A DNA stretch of 31,499 nt, from positions 1-31,499 of the IMG/VR virus record IMGVR_UViG_3300025326_000145; one strand, given 5' to 3'. The stretch comes from a virus. The notes under the pieces are model-generated. The model had not been told where the DNA came from, did not search any database, and saw only the letters and a list, made by a program, of their open reading frames with translations. This document shows, piece by piece, positions 7,993-22,213 of this stretch. Each line of letters opens with the position of its first letter. Within the stretch, counting starts at the first letter, position 1. A program made the translations under genes and the position numbers.

Positions 7993-9618
7993 TCACCATC
8001 CCTTCTTTGCCTGTTCCGACTTATCGGTCGTTTTCTTGCTCAAAGCGTTCCGCATGATCCACTCGATCGAACCCGTCCGCAGTTCGGGAGTTTTCATAAC
8101 AGACCGCCGCGCACCAACCTGTTTCGCCAGGCCCATGCCGATGTGCGCAATGAAATCGACGAAGTCGTCCTTCGACCCGTTCGGAAACCGAAGCATCTGC
8201 GCCTTGGCATTCTGCCACCACGGGGCGAATCTTGGAAATCGCACCTTCCGCATCTGGATTCGGCCCTGAATGGCCCGTGCGCGCGTGGGTTTATCCTTGC
8301 TTGGCGTCACCTCGTCGATGGGTATGTAAATTTGCTCTTCGCGCATCCTTTTGAACAAAAACGGGCCGAACGACTTTGAAATCAGTTCCGATTCCATCCA
8401 CCAAAGCTGCGGATTGTGGATTTGCATTTTCATAAGGAGTTCTTCAACCGTGCGATCGGTCTTCATGCGCTCCCAAACAAGGTCCGGCAGGATCCAGATG
8501 TCATCGTTCTCGTCGACACCGGCGCAGCCGATCACGGTGAAATCGCGCTCGGCCTTTTCGCTCACGGCATGGTCGGAGGCGCCGTATTTGCGCAGATTGG
8601 TCGGCAGTTCGGCGCGTTCATATTCAACCAGGTCGGCGGCCTCGAAATAGTCGCCGTCGTCAGGTGACGGGCGGCCCATGTAGAGCGCGCCGAAGATGCG
8701 CGCGTCGCTCGCCTTTGCTTCGGCCATCAGGGGCAGAGACTTTCGACCCGGCCAGAGGGCCGATATGGGTTTCGAACCGAATTGCGCCACGATGTCCGGA
8801 TCGGTCTGTACCGTAAGCGTCAAGCCGAGAGCTTTGGCCAGGTTGGGGTCTGTCACCACCGCAGGAAGATTTATGTACGTCCATCGCTTCTCCAATCCTT
8901 TGTAGAGGCCGTTGCGTTCGGGGTGCTCGGGGTCGCAAAGCCGGCCGATAAGGTCGTCCTCGCTCCACCTAGTATGGACTATGATGATGGCCGTCTCGTC
9001 GGTCGTGCGCGAGAACACCACGCCGTTGAACCAAGCCCACAGACCGTCGCGGAATGCCTGACTGCGCGCGTCGTCGGGACCGCGGATCGGGTCGTCGACG
9101 ACGAAACGCTTGGCCGCCTTGCCGGTGCCAGAGCCGCCGACGCCGACAAACGAAAGTTTGCCGCCTTCGGTCGACACCAGCAAATCTTTCGCGGCGCCGC
9201 CCTTCATGAGCTCGTAATTGGGAAATATCTGCTTGAACGGCTTGCCTTCAATGCGCGTGCGCACCTCAAAACCGAACTCGTCGGCGAACTTCTGATTGTA
9301 GCTGCCGAGGATCATGTCAGACCGTGGATCGCGGCCGGCCATCCATGCCGGCGCGGCGCGGCTAATAATTTCGCTCTTGCCCATCTGCGGTCCGATAGAC
9401 ACCGCAACGCGCTTGAGCTCGCCGCACTCAACCTTTTCCATGACCTCGCAAAGCAAGCGCGCCTGCGGCGTGACGATGTAGCGCGAGCGTGCCGCGTCAT
9501 CGAGGTCTTCGGCGTCCGGCATCGTCATCTGAATGAACTTGAGCAAGCTGTTGCGGGCGTCTTGCGCAGCAAGAAGCCGCTTGGCCGCTTTTAGCCGTTG
9601 CTCAAGTTCGCCGCTCAC
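7993..9618 (-). CDS. terL: Terminase large subunit
   Basis: This 541-residue protein is the packaging ATPase-nuclease that drives DNA through the portal. The ATPase domain shows a Walker A-like GPQMGKSE at about 76-83 and a Walker B RFVVDDP at about 171-177. A later VHTRWSEDDLIGRL segment (about 222-235) matches the coupling region of phage terminases. The C-terminal nuclease half contains GASDHAVSEKAERDFTVI, where the Asp residues are candidate metal ligands. GTG 9618 is chosen because it forms a GTGA overlap with the phosphoesterase gene and has AAGG about nine bases upstream; an in-frame start 12 codons earlier would sit inside that gene without better support. Portal follows directly. Confidence 0.93.
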   Translation of the reverse strand: MSGELEQRLKAAKRLLAAQDARNSLLKFIQMTMPDAEDLDDAARSRYIVTPQARLLCEVMEKVECGELKRVAVSIGPQMGKSEIISRAAPAWMAGRDPRSDMILGSYNQKFADEFGFEVRTRIEGKPFKQIFPNYELMKGGAAKDLLVSTEGGKLSFVGVGGSGTGKAAKRFVVDDPIRGPDDARSQAFRDGLWAWFNGVVFSRTTDETAIIIVHTRWSEDDLIGRLCDPEHPERNGLYKGLEKRWTYINLPAVVTDPNLAKALGLTLTVQTDPDIVAQFGSKPISALWPGRKSLPLMAEAKASDARIFGALYMGRPSPDDGDYFEAADLVEYERAELPTNLRKYGASDHAVSEKAERDFTVIGCAGVDENDDIWILPDLVWERMKTDRTVEELLMKMQIHNPQLWWMESELISKSFGPFLFKRMREEQIYIPIDEVTPSKDKPTRARAIQGRIQMRKVRFPRFAPWWQNAKAQMLRFPNGSKDDFVDFIAHIGMGLAKQVGARRSVMKTPELRTGSIEWIMRNALSKKTTDKSEQAKKGW

Positions 9619-10883
9619 GCCGCGACCTTGCCGGGATCGAACACCGAAACCCAATCCGGCGTCCCCTTGGTGATTGCCGGCTCAAGCTTCACTTCCCACC
9701 GCGACGTGATGCCGTAGCGAGGATGATTGAACCAGAGCGGTTGTGACGGCGGCGTCGGCGGCGCACTCAACGCAGACTTGGCGAAGTTGCAGTAGCCCTT
9801 GAGCGTGTTCGCCACGATGGCGCGCGGAAGCCACAGCGACTGGTGCCAGTGACCCATGACGATGATGTCGTAGGCCATGCCTGACGACGCCGAACGTCCG
9901 CGCGTCTTCACTTCGCCGCGCATGATCGGACCGATGGCGCCGATGATGCCGTCGCCGCCTTTTACGCCGAGCATGTCTCCGTGACAGGCCAGGTAAGCGG
10001 TGTCCCAAACGCGATAAAAGACTTCGTTGGCTGGTCGCACGTCGATCTGAATGCGGTCGTCCTTGCGGTCGGCCAGCGCACGGATGACCATTTGATAAAT
10101 CAGCCAGTCCCAATTCGTGTAGGGGTAGCCCTTGAACTCCGGCTTCGCGGTCGTGCGGCCGTGGTTGCCACAAACCGCCGGCGCATAGACGCGGCCGAAC
10201 TCGTCGGCGAACGCCTGCAGTCCCCACACAAGCAAATCGCGCACGCGCAGCGCGCATTGCATTGGCGTCTCTTCGTCGGTCTTGCGGAGCTCTTCATGCA
10301 GCCAGCCGGACACCATGTCGCCGATCAGATTGACGACGATGCCTGGATAATTCCCAGGACCGTGCTCGCGCGACAAGCGGATGGTGCGCTCGACGTAGCG
10401 CCGAAAGCGCGCTTCCATGATCGCAAGATTGAATTCGTTGACGCCGTTGAGCTCGTCGCGGCGCACCACTTCGCCGGCGTGCAGGTCGGCGATCGAAGTG
10501 ATAGGAACTTCCAGCGTTGACTGACCTTTCTTGACGCGCACCTGAACGGTCCAGTCGGGGGGCTCGCACGGCGCCAGCGACAGCGTGCCGAGGATGTTGC
10601 GCACTTCGTCTTCGGCGATCGTAGCGCGATGTTGCGTCTTGAGTTCGTTCTTGAGCCGATTTATTTCGTCGGCCTGCGCCAAGATGCGCCGATCCTTCGG
10701 GTCGCCGCCGAGTCGATAAGTGTTGACTGCTTTAGGACCACTGTTTTCAACACCGTCGGCAACGGCAAGGCGTTCGCGCACCTGATTGCGCGTCAGCTTC
10801 AAGATGCGCGCCGTGCCGTTTTGTGACGTGCCTTCCTGACGAAGGCGCGCGCATTCGTCAACTTCGCTCTGCGGAATTTTCAT
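9615..10883 (-). CDS. HTH domain fused to a calcineurin-like metallophosphoesterase
   Basis: This 422-residue protein has two parts. Residues about 5-45 resemble a helix-turn-helix of the 'resolvase/transposase' type (ECARLRQEGTSQNGTARILK then LTRNQVRERLA). Residues about 127-370 carry the full set of metallophosphoesterase motifs: ADLHAGE (D133, H135), IGDM (D189), GNH (239-241), H301 in ACHGDM, and GHWH (344-347). Such enzymes use two metal ions to cut phosphoesters, including DNA. A charged helix at about 68-92 links the parts. It overlaps the large terminase by four bases (GTGA), and GGAGGA precedes ATG 10883. Its role in packaging or DNA-end processing is inferred from this coupling; the true substrate is unknown. 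Confidence 0.85.
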   Translation of the reverse strand: MKIPQSEVDECARLRQEGTSQNGTARILKLTRNQVRERLAVADGVENSGPKAVNTYRLGGDPKDRRILAQADEINRLKNELKTQHRATIAEDEVRNILGTLSLAPCEPPDWTVQVRVKKGQSTLEVPITSIADLHAGEVVRRDELNGVNEFNLAIMEARFRRYVERTIRLSREHGPGNYPGIVVNLIGDMVSGWLHEELRKTDEETPMQCALRVRDLLVWGLQAFADEFGRVYAPAVCGNHGRTTAKPEFKGYPYTNWDWLIYQMVIRALADRKDDRIQIDVRPANEVFYRVWDTAYLACHGDMLGVKGGDGIIGAIGPIMRGEVKTRGRSASSGMAYDIIVMGHWHQSLWLPRAIVANTLKGYCNFAKSALSAPPTPPSQPLWFNHPRYGITSRWEVKLEPAITKGTPDWVSVFDPGKVAA

Positions 10884-14209: not shown

Positions 14210-14713
14210 CTAATCAAACATATCAATGCCTTGCGCTGGTGCCTGCTCGATAGTGGTGCCAATGACCGGCTTTGCGCGCTCAGCGAGCTCGCCTTCCAGG
14301 CGCGCAATGTATCGCCTCAGATCCTCTCCGGACATCTCGTGCAGAGCCTTGTCGCCCGGCGCTTCCTGCTTAGCCGGCGACGCTGCAGGGAAGCCGGCAC
14401 GGTCTAAGAACGTCTTAACCAGGCCTTCGCGCACACGTTCAGCCGTAGTTTCACTGCCAAGCAATTCCATGCCGACTTTTAGGGCCAGGGGCGCCGACTC
14501 GGTTTGCAGCATCCGGCCGAGCTCTATCGCTATTGCAGCCTGTACGTTGCCTTGTGCAATTAGCTGGTTTCCGATGGTTTCAGCATATTCCGGTGCGTAG
14601 CCGGAAACGGTTGCGGCCGCAACTGTTTTCATTCCCTTGCTTTTGTTTATGGCGAATAAACGTTCTTTATCGCTCAGTCTCAAAGCGGCCGGAAACCTTG
14701 CAGGCGCTGCCAT
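14210..14713 (-). CDS. Terminase small subunit-like protein
   Basis: This 167-residue protein resembles DNA-packaging small subunits: LSDKERLFAINKSKGMKTVA followed by AATVSGYAPEYAETIGNQLI fits the family pattern in which helix-turn-helix residues are followed by 'AGYSP..A...G..LL..P.V..AI'. Here QAAIAIELGRML and a SAPLALKVGMELL helix follow. The C-terminus is charged and helical (SGEDLRRYIARLEGELAERA). Small subunits recognise the packaging site and dock with TerL. ATG 14713 is chosen for its AAGGGAGA ribosome-binding site; 15 more in-frame residues upstream lack one. Unusually it is about 4.6 kb from terL, separated by fibre genes. Another HTH regulator is possible. Confidence 0.65.
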   Translation of the reverse strand: MAAPARFPAALRLSDKERLFAINKSKGMKTVAAATVSGYAPEYAETIGNQLIAQGNVQAAIAIELGRMLQTESAPLALKVGMELLGSETTAERVREGLVKTFLDRAGFPAASPAKQEAPGDKALHEMSGEDLRRYIARLEGELAERAKPVIGTTIEQAPAQGIDMFD

Positions 14714-14846
14714 TCTCTCCCTTTCGATCACGGAAACGTGAACACCAATACCCGACAAATAGCGACATTGCGCTAGACTTTATATGTTGATAGGTGTTGA
14801 TTATCACAACGGCCAGCAATACGCACGGCCGGCAAGTGAGGACAAG

Positions 14847-16233: not shown

Positions 16234-16830
16234 ATGAAATTCGAAATTAAAAACCGCTTCACTGGCGCCGTTCAATTCGCCGCCGAAATTAAATGCGATG
16301 GTGACGCCTCGACTTCAATCAAACTAGGTCTTGCCGTTCGCTCGGCAATTCTCCACGGGGCCGACCTCGGCGGGGCCGACCTCTACGGGGCCTACCTCGG
16401 CGGAGTCGACCTCCGCAAGACCAACCTCTGCGGGACCGACCTCGGCAAGGCCTACCTCGGCGGGGCCAACCTCTGCGGAGCCAAGAGCGACGTAAAAACA
16501 GTATGGCCGCCACTTTCAATATTGGCCGAAGGAACCTTGAACGTCTGGAAAAAACTGAAAAACAACGCGATTGCCAACCTTGAGATTCCAGCGAAAGCTA
16601 AACGTATAAACAGCACCGGCCGAAAATGTCGCGCTGAATTCGCCAAGGTGCTGTCAATCGTCAGCCGCGGCGGAAAGAAAATCAATATAGGTCACGCCTC
16701 GCACGACGGCACCGAATACAAAGTCGGCAAAATCGTAAAGCCCGACAAATACGATCACGACTTCCGCGTCGAATGCTCACACGGAATCCACTTCTTTATC
16801 ACACGCGAAGAAGCGGAGAATTACGAATGA
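16234..16830 (+). CDS. Pentapeptide-repeat protein
   Basis: This 198-residue protein has three parts. Residues 1-35 form a leader (MKFEIKNRFTGAVQFAAEIK). Residues about 38-83 consist of consecutive five-residue units of the A(D/N)LxG type (ADLGG, ADLYG, AYLGG, VDLRK, TNLCG, TDLGK, AYLGG, ANLCG), expected to form a right-handed square beta-helix. The rest is an alpha/beta domain with HASHDGTEYKVGKIV and ECSHGIHFFITREEAENYE, a C-terminal module I recall beside pentapeptide repeats in phage proteins. Some pentapeptide proteins mimic DNA and block gyrase or restriction enzymes, but this one is short and shows no such evidence. AGAGGA lies about nine bases before ATG 16234. Confidence 0.9.
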   Translation: MKFEIKNRFTGAVQFAAEIKCDGDASTSIKLGLAVRSAILHGADLGGADLYGAYLGGVDLRKTNLCGTDLGKAYLGGANLCGAKSDVKTVWPPLSILAEGTLNVWKKLKNNAIANLEIPAKAKRINSTGRKCRAEFAKVLSIVSRGGKKINIGHASHDGTEYKVGKIVKPDKYDHDFRVECSHGIHFFITREEAENYE

Positions 16831-16919
16831 ACACATTGGAGGAACTTCTATCACCCCTGCTCGCGACCGCGCTTTCACTCACCATTGCCGGCGCCTGGCT
16901 CGCGATCGCCCTCTGCTAA
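16827..16919 (+). CDS. 30-residue single-span membrane peptide
   Basis: A short frame overlaps the stop of the pentapeptide gene by four bases (ATGA) and encodes a polar start (MNTLEELLSP) followed by about 20 hydrophobic residues (LLATALSLTIAGAWLAIALC). Coupled start, a perfect membrane span and a strong terminator right after the stop support a real small gene. Its last 45 bases overlap the convergent winged-helix gene. Function unknown; small phage membrane peptides may affect host envelope proteins. Confidence 0.5.
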   Translation: MNTLEELLSPLLATALSLTIAGAWLAIALC

Positions 16920-17444
16920 ATCCAAACGGATGGCGCCTAAAAGCGCCATCCGTTTTGCTTCACCCGCCGCCGTCAGCCTCCACAAGAATTCCGGCTCCAC
17001 CACGCGCCGCTCGTCACTGCGCGTCGCCCACCGCCCATCCCATGCCGGATTACGACCGCGCACAACCCATCCCCTCCCCACCATGTCCTGATAAATCTTC
17101 GCGCAAACCGATTTGCGCGGAATGCCTGTTGTGTTGACCAGGTCGCGCACCCCGTACCAGGCGCCCGGCTCCATTGCCGCCAGTATCCGCTCCACATGCT
17201 TTATCCGCCCCGGCCTTGCCGCCCACGGCTGGCGCCTCGCCTCGACACGCCGATCGAGCGCGGCCAACGTGCGCGCCCACCTAGCCCGATGCCATGCCCT
17301 GCGGGCGACCGCCATGCGCGCCCGGCTCTCGACCGTGTGCCGATCGCCTTTGCGCATGGGACCGCGCCCCGCGGTGGCAATGCGCAAAAGCGCGTCCCAT
17401 GACTCGGTTCCGAAATAGGCCAGTGGGTGTCGGGGTTTTACCAT
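16875..17444 (-). CDS. Winged-helix-like DNA-binding protein
   Basis: This 189-residue, Arg/Trp-rich basic protein ends the minus-strand replication operon. A region at about 95-160 looks like a winged helix: KHVERILAAMEPGAWYGVRD, then LVNTTGIPRKSVCAKIYQDM as recognition helix and VGRGWVVRGRNPAWDGRWA as wing. The N-terminal half has many Arg residues (MAVARRAWHRARWARTLAAL), a possible nucleic-acid surface. I chose ATG 17444 over a GTG 14 codons upstream because that extension lies in the GTTCAA repeat region. The C-terminus is encoded through the hairpin at 16924-16956. It could regulate transcription or act as an origin-binding partner of the primase-helicase; both are inferences from position. 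Confidence 0.7.
   Translation of the reverse strand: MVKPRHPLAYFGTESWDALLRIATAGRGPMRKGDRHTVESRARMAVARRAWHRARWARTLAALDRRVEARRQPWAARPGRIKHVERILAAMEPGAWYGVRDLVNTTGIPRKSVCAKIYQDMVGRGWVVRGRNPAWDGRWATRSDERRVVEPEFLWRLTAAGEAKRMALLGAIRLDLAEGDREPGAGNGE
16924..16956 (+). terminator. Strong intrinsic terminator of the plus-strand accessory block
   Basis: AAACGGATGGCGC (16924-16936) pairs perfectly with GCGCCATCCGTTT (16943-16955) around CTAAAA, and a TTTT run overlaps the end of the stem. It follows the 30-residue peptide stop by five bases. On the minus strand the same hairpin lies inside the end of the winged-helix gene, so it may also reduce transcription in that direction. Confidence 0.85.
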
Positions 17445-17469
17445 GCGTCCGTTACTTGAACGGAACTTT

Positions 17470-17622
17470 ATGAACAACTTGAACACCTATATAGTGGGTG
17501 TTCAAGTGTTCAACGGAGTTCCATTGTCCGATGTTCATATTTGTTCAAGTTGTTCAAACAGGACAACCCATTGACCGCGCTTTACTTTTCGTAATGTTCG
17601 TTTTTGTTCAAGCGTGTTCAAC
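17470..17622. repeat. Cluster of paired GTTCAA sites
   Basis: Four pairs of GTTCAA-type half-sites occur in about 150 bases. TGAAC/TTGAAC lie at 17471 and 17479 (inverse orientation). GTTCAA occurs at 17500 and 17508, at 17543 and 17552, and at 17606 and 17616. Half-site starts within pairs are 8-10 bases apart, about one helical turn. The first two pairs form an inverted repeat: CTTGAACACC (17478-17487) mirrors GGTGTTCAAG (17497-17506) around a TATATAGT centre. The last two pairs lie inside the 3' end of the primase gene, where they encode LFEQLEQ and LNTLEQ. The arrangement suits an operator array or origin iterons. Confidence 0.6.
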
Positions 17623-19520
17623 ATGCGCCCGACAGTCATGCGCTCGCTGTCCGAAATCGGAGTTTGAACGAAGGCCGACATTCGCGACATTCCCCGACTT
17701 TGCGCCCCGTTATCGGTCGGATACATTATTGCGTGAATGAACGCCGCTTTGAAATTATATTGCGCGGCCAGCGCCCGGTCGCCGTCGCATTTATCGAGCA
17801 CGGCGGCCTCTATGAGTTCCAACAAATCGCTTTCCTCGCGGGTCAAGTCGACGGCACCAAAGTCGCCACTGTCCCGCAGTTCCACGATGCAGCTAGTCAC
17901 CTTGTCGCCGTCCGCGTCCCGGCCAATCTCGACCGTTTTCAGGTTGAAGCGAATCGGCTCGCCGGCATCGAGCTCGCGTTGCTTCGTCGCCGTGATGACG
18001 TGATTGTCGACTTCGAGCTCGGTGTCGGTGGCCGCCCGCAACAGCGAATGCCCGCGAGCGCCCCGCGCCTTATCCTTGCCGGAGTGGTGCACGACCATGA
18101 GGTGCGCGCCGGTGGCGGTCCGGATGCGATCGAAATTGCGCACAATAGCGCCCATGTCGGTCGGCGCGTTCTCGTCACCGCCAGCGATTGCTCGAGACAG
18201 CGTGTCTATTACGACCAGCGCGACCGGCTGCGCGTGCTTCGCCTCGATCGACCGGACCAAGGCAATCAGTGCTTCGGTGTCGCCTGCCTTGCCGGCGCGC
18301 AGCAGGTCGACCGGACAGGGGATAATCTCAAAGGGGAGCGCGCCTGTTGCTTCTACACTGTAATGGCGGCCGAGAGCTTCCAGGCGCTTGAAAATGCCGC
18401 CACCGCCTTCCGCTGCGACGTAGACCACCAATCCCTGCGTTGTCTTGCAGCCGTTCCATGCTGCACCCGCGGCGACGTGGTAGCTGAAATCGAGCGCCAG
18501 GAATGACTTGCCGCTATTGCTCTCACCGTAAAGGACGCTCATGGCCGCGGTGTCGAGCAATCCCTTGATTAGCGGCTTCATGCCCGCGGTCAGCGCGCGT
18601 TGTCGGCCCTCGTTGAATGGCACGGCATAGAGCCCTCTTCGCGGCTCTTGCTGCGTCGGCGCTTCGCGCCGCCTGTCTGTGATCTGCACCTCGCCATCGC
18701 TGCTGAATTCCGCTTCGGCGGATAATGAGCCTGGCGGGCGCGAGCCGTAGCCGTAAGCATTGTTAACCTTTTGAGCGAGCTCGGCCGGATCCCACGTCGG
18801 GAACGCCTTTTGTTCGTTCCAATGCTGGCACATCAAATCCCAACAGGTCGGCTCGCTCACGCCGAAGTCTTTCACCCTGGCTGCCACCTTGTAGGTCGTT
18901 GCGTCACCGCCGGCGCCTTCGACGGCTTCCGGCGCGTTGTCCTGCAGGTAGCGCGTGGCGTTGATTATGGCGGCGTCGCTGTCGAGCTCGATCGCCGGCG
19001 CGCTCGTGTCTGTTCGCTCGCGCGCTGTGCCGCATAGGTCGATCAGCCATTGCGGGGCTTCTGTGAGCGCGCCGCCGAGGTCTTCGTACGGTTTGCCGTC
19101 GATCACCGAGCCGGCCGCCACCACGTAACCGCGCCGGCCACGCACGTCGACGTTCGGTGCGATCTTGCTGACTGAGTTCGGCACCTCAATGCCGGCCGGA
19201 AGCGTGTAAATCATGTGCAATCCGCCGCTTGGCGTGCGCACCGACCACGTTGCCGGCAAGCCCATCATTTCGAGCATGGCAAGCGATTCGGCGCCCCTCT
19301 GGCCGGGCTTGCAATCAAAGTCGAGCGCGAGGTCGGGGACCAGGCCGATGTTCGCGTTGTCCGGCCGATCAAACCAATCTTGATCGATTTGCGCCAGGTC
19401 GCAGGTCGCGCGCTCGGGCCAGTTATCCCACTCGCTTGCTGGCTTCTTGCTGTTAGCGCGCAGCGGGAAGACGCGGTGTCCGGCGGCGGCCAAGCGTTGT
19501 GCGGATTCGAATATGGTCAT
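17535..19520 (-). CDS. Primase-polymerase / RepA-like helicase
   Basis: This 661-residue protein joins two replication activities. Residues 1-165 match the bifunctional primase-polymerase (AEP) domain: AAAGHRVFPLRANSKKPA at the start, the metal-binding D67-x-D69 in LALDFDC, and GGLHMIY with H102. Residues about 310-550 form a RecA-fold hexameric helicase of the RepA/AAA_25 type, with Walker A GESNSGKS (332-339), Walker B ALVVID (434-439) and a VVHHSGKD motif (476-483). A DNA-binding C-terminus is likely. The start ATG 19520 overlaps the methyltransferase stop (ATGA). It should lay primers and unwind DNA for the family A polymerase encoded at 29112. Confidence 0.92.
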   Translation of the reverse strand: MTIFESAQRLAAAGHRVFPLRANSKKPASEWDNWPERATCDLAQIDQDWFDRPDNANIGLVPDLALDFDCKPGQRGAESLAMLEMMGLPATWSVRTPSGGLHMIYTLPAGIEVPNSVSKIAPNVDVRGRRGYVVAAGSVIDGKPYEDLGGALTEAPQWLIDLCGTARERTDTSAPAIELDSDAAIINATRYLQDNAPEAVEGAGGDATTYKVAARVKDFGVSEPTCWDLMCQHWNEQKAFPTWDPAELAQKVNNAYGYGSRPPGSLSAEAEFSSDGEVQITDRRREAPTQQEPRRGLYAVPFNEGRQRALTAGMKPLIKGLLDTAAMSVLYGESNSGKSFLALDFSYHVAAGAAWNGCKTTQGLVVYVAAEGGGGIFKRLEALGRHYSVEATGALPFEIIPCPVDLLRAGKAGDTEALIALVRSIEAKHAQPVALVVIDTLSRAIAGGDENAPTDMGAIVRNFDRIRTATGAHLMVVHHSGKDKARGARGHSLLRAATDTELEVDNHVITATKQRELDAGEPIRFNLKTVEIGRDADGDKVTSCIVELRDSGDFGAVDLTREESDLLELIEAAVLDKCDGDRALAAQYNFKAAFIHAIMYPTDNGAQSRGMSRMSAFVQTPISDSERMTVGRMLNTLEQKRTLRKVKRGQWVVLFEQLEQI

Positions 19521-20892: not shown

Positions 20893-21299
20893 GGCTTTGC
20901 TGCCGCGTGCTTTTCCCACGCACGATCAAGCAGGGCTTTGTCTTCTGGCGTTAAAGGCTCATCGCGTTCGGCCAAGTCCGAATCTTGTGCACGTATTTCG
21001 GACAACTCGGCCCGAAGCCGCTGATTGTCCTCACGCACGGCCTCCAAGAGATTGCGAAGCTGGATGGTATCCTCAGCACGGCGCGCGTAAATCAGTACCT
21101 GGTTAGCTAGGGCGCTGTTTGCCGATTCCAGCTTTTGAACCCTGGCGAGAGCTTTTTCGAGCGCATCGCGGGTGCCTTCCAGCATCTCAGCAAGGCTGTC
21201 ATTGTTCGGGATAATCATAGGACACCTTTCATGATCGCAGGCAAATCCAAGCACCTGCATGTTTGTCGCACCGCAGTCTGAGCAATAGCGTCTCATCAT
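20889..21299 (-). CDS. Cys-cluster and coiled-coil accessory protein of the insertion sequence
   Basis: This 136-residue protein starts with a Cys-rich module (C6, C9, C21, C26; CSDCGATN then CDHERC), probably a zinc knuckle, followed by a long heptad-patterned helix at about 33-115 (LEGTRDALEKALARVQKLES, then LLEAVREDNQRLRAELSEIR). It overlaps the transposase stop and the next gene's start by four bases each. It lies inside the terminal repeats. It might be a transposition cofactor or a cargo gene; the phage-like look of the coiled coil leaves open capture from a phage. Confidence 0.8.
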   Translation of the reverse strand: MMRRYCSDCGATNMQVLGFACDHERCPMIIPNNDSLAEMLEGTRDALEKALARVQKLESANSALANQVLIYARRAEDTIQLRNLLEAVREDNQRLRAELSEIRAQDSDLAERDEPLTPEDKALLDRAWEKHAAAKP

Positions 21300-22213
21300 T
21301 GGATCAGTGCCTTGTAGGTCAGGCGCTTGCCCTTCGTGCCGCTCACAAAGCTTTCCAGCCGCTCCATGGTGTGACGCTTCACGTTGCCGTCATTCAGACG
21401 GAAGGCAAATTCGTCAACGTAGCGGCCAAGGTGCTTTTTGCTGGCGTGGTGATAGACGCCAATCAGGCCGCGCTTCATGACCGCGAACACGCTTTCAACG
21501 CCGTTGGTGGTCACGCTATCGCGGACGTATTCGCCTTCGCTGTGGTTGACAGTTTCGTGGTTGAAGAACAGCCCGCCAAGGCCACGGTACACGCCAGCCT
21601 CATCGGTGTGCAGCGTGGAACCGGCGGCGACGTGCTGATGGATTTTGGTGTGCAGGGTCGCCATGTCGGCGTCCTCAACCGCCATCGCCTTCATTCGGCC
21701 CTTGCGCTCGCGCATGGCGACAACGGCGGTCTTGCCGACCGTGCCGCGTCCCGCCTTGAGCTTTCTGGACTCGTGCTTGTTCTTCTCGATTCCGCCGACG
21801 TAGGTTTCGTCGATTTCCACGATGCCTTGCAACTTGGTCAGATCGTCGCCGCAGGCTTCGCGAAGGCGATGCAGAACGAACCAAGCCGACTTTTGCGTGA
21901 TCCCGATTTCCTTCGCCAGTTGCAGGCTGGAAATGCCCTTGCGGGCCGTGACCAGCAGATACATGGCGTAAATCCACTTGTGCAGCGGGACGTGGCTGCG
22001 CTCGAAAATGGTGCCCGTCCGCACGGTAAAATCCTCTTTGCATTGGTTGCAGCGAAAGTAGCCGCCCGCCCGCGCCGTGATCCGCTCGCCAAGGCCACAG
22101 ACCGGGCACTTGGGGCCTTCCGGCCACAGACGCCCCTCCAAATAGACCCGCGCCGTCTCTTGATCCGGGAACATCGCGAACAACTCAAAGGTGGAAATCG
22201 TGGACTTACTCAT
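21296..22213 (-). CDS. IS1595-family (ISXO2-like) transposase
   Basis: This 305-residue enzyme cuts and joins the IS ends. The N-terminus has a zinc ribbon (C36, C39, C55, C58; CPVC and CNQC), followed by a helix-turn-helix at about 92-115 (GISSLQLAKEIGITQKSA). The ISXO2-type catalytic domain shows EIDETYVGG (D135), HTDEAGVYRGL (D204), NHSEGEYV and VTTNGVESVF, then a C-terminal HLGRYVDEFAFRLN signature. All catalytic residues are present and the frame is intact, so it is probably active. GAGG lies about ten bases before ATG 22213. Confidence 0.95.
   Translation of the reverse strand: MSKSTISTFELFAMFPDQETARVYLEGRLWPEGPKCPVCGLGERITARAGGYFRCNQCKEDFTVRTGTIFERSHVPLHKWIYAMYLLVTARKGISSLQLAKEIGITQKSAWFVLHRLREACGDDLTKLQGIVEIDETYVGGIEKNKHESRKLKAGRGTVGKTAVVAMRERKGRMKAMAVEDADMATLHTKIHQHVAAGSTLHTDEAGVYRGLGGLFFNHETVNHSEGEYVRDSVTTNGVESVFAVMKRGLIGVYHHASKKHLGRYVDEFAFRLNDGNVKRHTMERLESFVSGTKGKRLTYKALIQ

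Follow-up and report, generated by a model that had tools for sequence, protein, structure and literature searches.

Features of the locus

The window analyzed here spans an entire IMG/VR virus record (31,499 bases), itself possibly only part of a longer genome. An array of short repeats containing GTTC half-sites was found at 17456-17622, around the stop codon of a primase-helicase gene (17535-17537, minus strand), and the coordinates of its parts and of the adjoining genes are given in Table 1. A gene for a pentapeptide-repeat protein with a DUF5758 domain (16234-16830, plus strand; PF00805, PF19062) was located just beyond this region.

Table 1. Positions of the repeat array and adjoining genes in the window
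Feature	Position	Strand	Basis or remark
Primase-helicase initiator, 661 aa	17535..19520	-	Pfam PF09250 5.6e-32, PF13481 3.3e-39
Predicted C-terminal winged-helix domain, residues 546-661	17538..17885	-	AlphaFold2; proposed iteron reader
Downstream ORF, 189 aa, helix-turn-helix-like C-terminus	16875..17444	-	Not required by the origin model
Inverted iteron group: TTGAACG 17456, GGAAC 17462, ATGAACA 17470, TTGAACA 17479	17456..17485	-	
Centre of symmetry TATATAGTG between ACTTGAACACC and GGTGTTCAAGT	17488..17496	.	Sequence
Iteron pair TGTTCAA (17499, 17507) and half-site GTTC 17518	17499..17521	+	
Iteron triple: 17532 TGTTCAT, 17542, 17551	17532..17557	+	
IHF-like box TCAATGGGTTG	17564..17574	-	Near the position of the relatives' TCAATGNNTTA
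Outer iteron group: half-site 17596, iterons 17605, 17615	17595..17621	+	

A preliminary description had reported four pairs of half-sites. The pairs are real, and three are exact GTTCAA-N-GTTCAA pairs (17500/17508, 17543/17552 and 17606/17616) with no other such pair in the whole record; the fourth (17470/17479; ATGAACA, TTGAACA) carries one mismatch, and the true unit was found to be a triple. In the array, GTTC half-sites are arranged in threes with steps of 8-10 bp; of the four such groups, the plus strand carries three (17500/17508/17518, 17533/17543/17552 and 17596/17606/17616) and the minus strand one (17463/17472/17481). No further GTTC triple at 8-11 bp steps occurred elsewhere in the window, and dinucleotide shuffles of the whole window (n=200) gave a mean of 0.045 triples with a maximum of 1. 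The hexamer GTTCAA was counted 34 times in the 31.5-kb window compared to 16.8 expected, approximately twofold the expectation for the whole record and a number reached in none of 100 shuffles. Nine of the 34 copies fall within 17456-17669, and no similar density was found in the rest of the record. The alphaproteobacterial LexA/SOS box is GTTC-N7-GTTC, with a step of 11; a LexA/SOS box reading was rejected, there being no 11-bp step inside the array.

The minus-strand group opposes the first plus-strand group across TATATAGTG. A perfect inverted repeat had been described here with 10-bp arms; the repeat is perfect, the arms measure 11 bp (ACTTGAACACC, 17477-17487, and GGTGTTCAAGT, 17497-17507) and the spacer is TATATAGTG. 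These arms sit within a longer 29-nt inverted repeat of 72% (17459-17487/17497-17525).

Overlap of the array with coding sequence

With the stop codon at 17535-17537, the third group straddles the 3' end of the primase-helicase gene and only the fourth is internal to it, a correction to the earlier placement of both groups in coding sequence. The other two groups are non-coding. The iteron triple encodes most of the protein tail LFEQLEQI. The protein of the nearest relative, L049, ends in HGRWALA, whereas the window protein continues from KRGQWVV into LFEQLEQI; as read from the two sequences, LFEQLEQI is coding sequence running into the array, and L049 is without this tail. The outer group falls within the part of the gene that codes for the C-terminal domain, where relatives have their outer pairs, and DNA and protein are therefore both probably under selection there. 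The proposal of dual selection is accordingly retained for the in-gene sites at the relatives' iteron positions (-126/-116 from the centre) but not for the LFEQLEQI tail.

Since part of the array is coding, it was considered whether the sites are a chance cluster or a by-product of the LFEQLEQ codons. None of 5000 local shuffles gave four triples, two groups are non-coding, and in the relatives described below the layout persists although words and codons differ. This explanation is extremely improbable.

In two other loci, L004 (3489-3600; Paracoccus prophage) and L131, an array of GGGGAACA with the centre CCCTATAGGG lies wholly within the helicase gene, and the entire array is therefore coding there.

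Domain organization of the primase-helicase protein

The protein contains a Prim-Pol domain (residues 7-158), an AAA_25 hexameric helicase domain of the RSF1010 RepA type (residues 307-484) and a predicted C-terminal winged helix. The helicase matched RSF1010 RepA, the solved hexameric helicase 1g8y (phmmer E=1.3e-7). When the C-terminal 116 residues were modelled with AlphaFold2 using 20 aligned relatives, a helix-strand-helix-helix-wing order was obtained, with pLDDT values of 82-92 for the wing and for the greater part of the helices. Comparison of this model by VIA-align gave Z about 7 to many winged helices with no particular family singled out, and comparison of the domain with solved structures by sequence returned no specific relative. 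The P4 alpha origin-binding domain was absent from the list of structural matches, an absence that does not exclude likeness, and no sequence match to P4 alpha was found. The P4 alpha helicase is of the SF3 type. The N-terminus of the window protein is a Prim-Pol domain (PF09250) and not the Toprim-type primase of P4 alpha initiators, and its AAA_25, RSF1010 RepA-like helicase is not of the SaPI Rep type.

Conservation of the array layout in relatives

With the whole primase protein as query only one close locus was found, and terminase and DNA polymerase scans returned distant phages only. When six primase-helicase proteins were aligned and the alignment was used for scanning, 80 viral and 73 genome loci were obtained, from which 92 non-redundant relatives of the primase-helicase gene remained after removal of near copies; the chief weaknesses of the analysis are that words were registered by hand, that score thresholds had to be chosen and that a single scan alignment was used. 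In the 100 bp after the helicase stop codon of these 92 relatives, identical 7-mers at 8-12 bp steps amounted to 3.8 on average, compared to a background of about 0.12 per 100 bp farther away, an approximately 30-fold enrichment. The step spectrum had peaks at 9 and 10 and a second rise at 18-21. Fifty of the 92 relatives exceeded all 100 shuffles and 26 scored below 2 in the array scan; no clear array was found after the gene in Caulobacter phage GB2A (L048) or in L043.

The repeated word differs among relatives (CGTTCC, CGTTAC, CGTCAC, CGTGAC, CCGGAC, CTACAAAA, TGTATGAA, TGGTCAAA, TTGTGAGG and more), and a common layout was found nonetheless: an outer pair, a triple, a pair, a palindromic centre that is often CCTWTAGG, and an inverted pair; in some loci an IHF-like box is added. 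In the window two iteron sets stand on either side of a centre just after the replication gene, and the same layout was seen in 33-46 loci. It was the layout that was conserved, and not the LFEQLEQ codons. Measured from the centre, the sites of the window lie at -126 and -116 (outer iterons 17615 and 17605), -62, -54 and -44 (the triple), -18 and -10 (the TGTTCAA pair at 17507 and 17499) and, inverted, at +10 and +20 (the inverted pair). The corresponding positions were -128, -118, -108, -64, -54, -44, -20, -12, +12 and +18 in L057 and -118, -106, -62, -52, -42, -18, -10, +10 and +18 in L054. The window matches L057 in five of five outer sites and L054 in four of five, with unrelated words, and its outer group stands where L057, L086 and L107 have their outer pairs and near the outer pairs of L044 and L116. 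Over 30 loci, 640 outer-site coincidences within 2 bp were counted, compared to 303 (sd 18, maximum 384) in controls in which the outer block of each locus was rotated.

The palindrome CCTWTAGG was 37-fold enriched around the stop codon, with 44 occurrences in the array zones of the 92 loci. The centre at 17488..17496 corresponds to this type of palindrome, TATATAGTG not being a clean CCTWTAGG, and it is a candidate melting or priming site. Among 33 aligned arrays, TCAANNNNTTR occurred in the forward orientation only 80-100 bp before the centre and in reverse once, and CAATGRSTTA was 31-fold enriched in relatives. The IHF-like box is a consensus match only and is present, at 80-100 bp before the centre, in a minority of arrays; in the window its core CAANNNNTTR lies close to that place.

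A second large layout class (L044, L086, L091, L107 and L116 among its members) was observed in which the middle group is reversed relative to the class of the window, three or four sites at -69 to -39 replacing the triple.

Five plasmid records carry an array after the helicase gene, phage-like circles of 17-38 kb among them: pMRAD08 (21 kb), a Methylobacterium currus plasmid (35 kb), a Caenibius plasmid (38 kb), a Klebsiella phage-like circle (17 kb) and a Xanthobacter plasmid. A circular plasmid state fits an origin function, and it does not prove that the array is the driver. In the M. currus plasmid (L204, 7609-9746) the array-bearing helicase has no fused primase and follows a separate Toprim-domain gene. 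The array therefore goes with the helicase and its tail and not with Prim-Pol, and the primase part of the module appears to be exchangeable.

The downstream gene and a possible operator function

The ORF at 16875-17444 had no Pfam, PHROG or phage match, and no relatives were found when it was used as the query; single-sequence structure prediction gave pLDDT 45, too low for the model to be of use. An operator array had also been suggested for this locus. On such a reading the neighbouring winged-helix protein encoded by this ORF would occupy the sites and repress the promoter of its own gene. The sites do lie just upstream of the ORF, and in the closest relative, L049, the ORF after the array encodes a homolog (45% identity over 87 aa). 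L049 was, however, the only locus sharing this ORF, and the array was not found to be conserved together with this candidate regulator gene. The next ORF after the array belonged to 48 unrelated clusters in 66 loci and was on the opposite strand in 20 of them, the layout and palindromic centre remained constant without the 16875-17444 gene, and a search for a sigma-70-like promoter at the array was negative. The array goes with the helicase gene rather than with a particular gene beyond it, and for this reason the operator function is not favoured and is distinctly unlikely.

Association of the repeated word with the C-terminal domain

In 33 loci with a clear centre, similarity of the word tracked the C-terminal domain when helicase similarity was allowed for (partial Mantel r=0.456, p<=0.0005), whereas no such association was found with the helicase domain when the C-terminal domain was allowed for (r=-0.05, p=0.80). 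The words of 29 loci, put in register by hand, were scattered over the helicase tree, with 17 changes compared to a least possible number of 11. A recognition helix with AFHK was found with CGTTCC in five of five cases; CGTTAC (AFF or AFS) went with a non-arginine residue two positions past the phenylalanine in six of six, and CGTCAC (AFMR or AFLR) with arginine at that position in four of four. This relation was drawn up excluding the window, whose C-terminal domain falls with those of L049, L108, L054, L057 and L052 in a more divergent group. Paracoccus genes adjacent on the tree have different words and matching helices, and recognition-helix residues changed with the word in all three supported independent pairs, a number too small for a sign test to reach significance.

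Since the array lies next to the sequence for the C-terminal domain, exchange of both as a block could give part of the association without contact between them. Block exchange alone would not account for shared words among distant genes whose helices are similar. Both the replication protein and the product of the winged-helix gene had been named as candidate binders; through its predicted winged-helix C-terminus the replication protein is favoured as the iteron binder over the neighbouring gene product, which has a homolog in one relative only.

The array as a putative replication origin

Regular tandem short repeats at near-helical steps, as found in iteron origins, and linkage to an initiator gene with a predicted DNA-binding domain were present in the window and in relatives. 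The early suggestion of a replication origin received strong support from dozens of relatives with the same layout straight after the same helicase gene and with different words. With its statistical excess, its conserved layout and a word that tracks the C-terminal domain, the array would very probably be an iteron-type replication origin read by the C-terminal winged helix of the primase-helicase. GC skew did not point to the array, and in CRP-823 and RHph_N65, as in the window, it was uninformative about the position of the origin.

In the mechanism that we propose, copies of the primase-helicase would bind the TTGAACA iterons through their C-terminal winged-helix domains, and the fixed layout would place the helicase complexes face to face across the TATATA centre. 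The IHF-like box between the outer pair and the triple may bend the DNA, the duplex would open at the TATATA centre, and the primase-helicase would itself make the first primers through its Prim-Pol domain.

Two other functions were considered. Iterons act at several places in P4 and in several plasmids, and the sites could be incompatibility-type iterons bound by the replication protein for copy control or partition, with initiation elsewhere; the data show linkage between protein and array rather than initiation. Yet this is the sole such array in the window, and a symmetric two-arm layout round a centre is a mark of PICI origins (PMC6092414). Copy control or partition is therefore an unlikely function of the array. 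A packaging (pac/cos) or recombination site is very improbable: short repeats are also kept at phage packaging sites, but in relatives the array follows the helicase gene, and both terminase genes of the window lie several kb off (7993-9654 and 14210-14758).

Comparison of the putative origin with known systems

In PICI/SaPI elements (SaPIbov1, EcCICFT073) the origin lies after the rep gene, two sets of iterons surround a centre, and the helicase reads them through its C-terminal domain (PMC6092414, PMC7581432). The locus described here resembles this pri-rep-ori arrangement in that the putative origin directly follows the gene and two sets of short iterons flank a possibly melting centre. It differs in being carried by phages and phage-plasmids and not by satellites, and in having an RSF1010 RepA-like (AAA_25) helicase fused to Prim-Pol in place of the SaPI Rep. 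Since terminase subunits and a DNA polymerase are encoded in the record itself, it reads as a phage and not as a satellite.

The alpha protein of P4 combines a Toprim-type primase, a helicase and a C-terminal winged helix in one polypeptide that binds origin repeats (PMC4234260), and the present system is like P4 alpha with ori/crr in having primase, helicase and a predicted winged helix in one protein together with repeats at a putative origin. In SCCmec the helicase Cch2 binds, through its C-terminus, iterons in the form of direct repeats situated just past the helicase gene, and priming prefers the same place (PMC7581432); the helicase is another one, and priming is by a separate A-family polymerase complex, CCPol-MP. 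The RSF1010 oriV has a homologous helicase, RepA, and an iteron origin, but iteron binding, helicase and primase are divided among three proteins, RepA, RepB' and RepC (PMC4234260), compared to one protein here. The pRN1 protein ORF904 contains Prim-Pol, helicase and C-terminal winged helix and has a cis-acting replication element directly downstream (PMC4234260); unlike in the window, its helicase is SF3 and the element is a long stem-loop without iterons.

An origin after the helicase gene, two iteron sets and C-terminal recognition are known already; what sets the present loci apart is the type of helicase, its fusion to Prim-Pol, their occurrence in phages and the details of the layout. 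In the literature searched, which was mostly outside subscription journals, no description was found of a layout that combines the outer pair, triple and IHF-like box with a CCTWTAGG centre. We lean towards the view that these loci represent a widespread, undescribed class of phage origin with a fixed initiation geometry and a changeable word, in which the winged-helix tail of a RepA-type helicase, often fused to Prim-Pol, is matched to the array and a conserved CCTWTAGG is the melting or priming centre. If tail and array are matched in this way, each phage would have a private origin. Probable origins could be located by inspecting a 150-bp stretch around the stop codons of RepA-type helicase genes, a simple rule that would cover many uncultivated phages of Alphaproteobacteria and some of Gammaproteobacteria. 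The pairs of word and recognition helix would form a natural series on how initiator specificity changes at constant origin geometry.

Elsewhere in the record, an IS1595/ISXO2-type transposase gene was found at 21296-22213 (minus strand; PF12762 1.4e-47, PF12760), which is either a phage-carried insertion sequence or a sign of a mixed contig.
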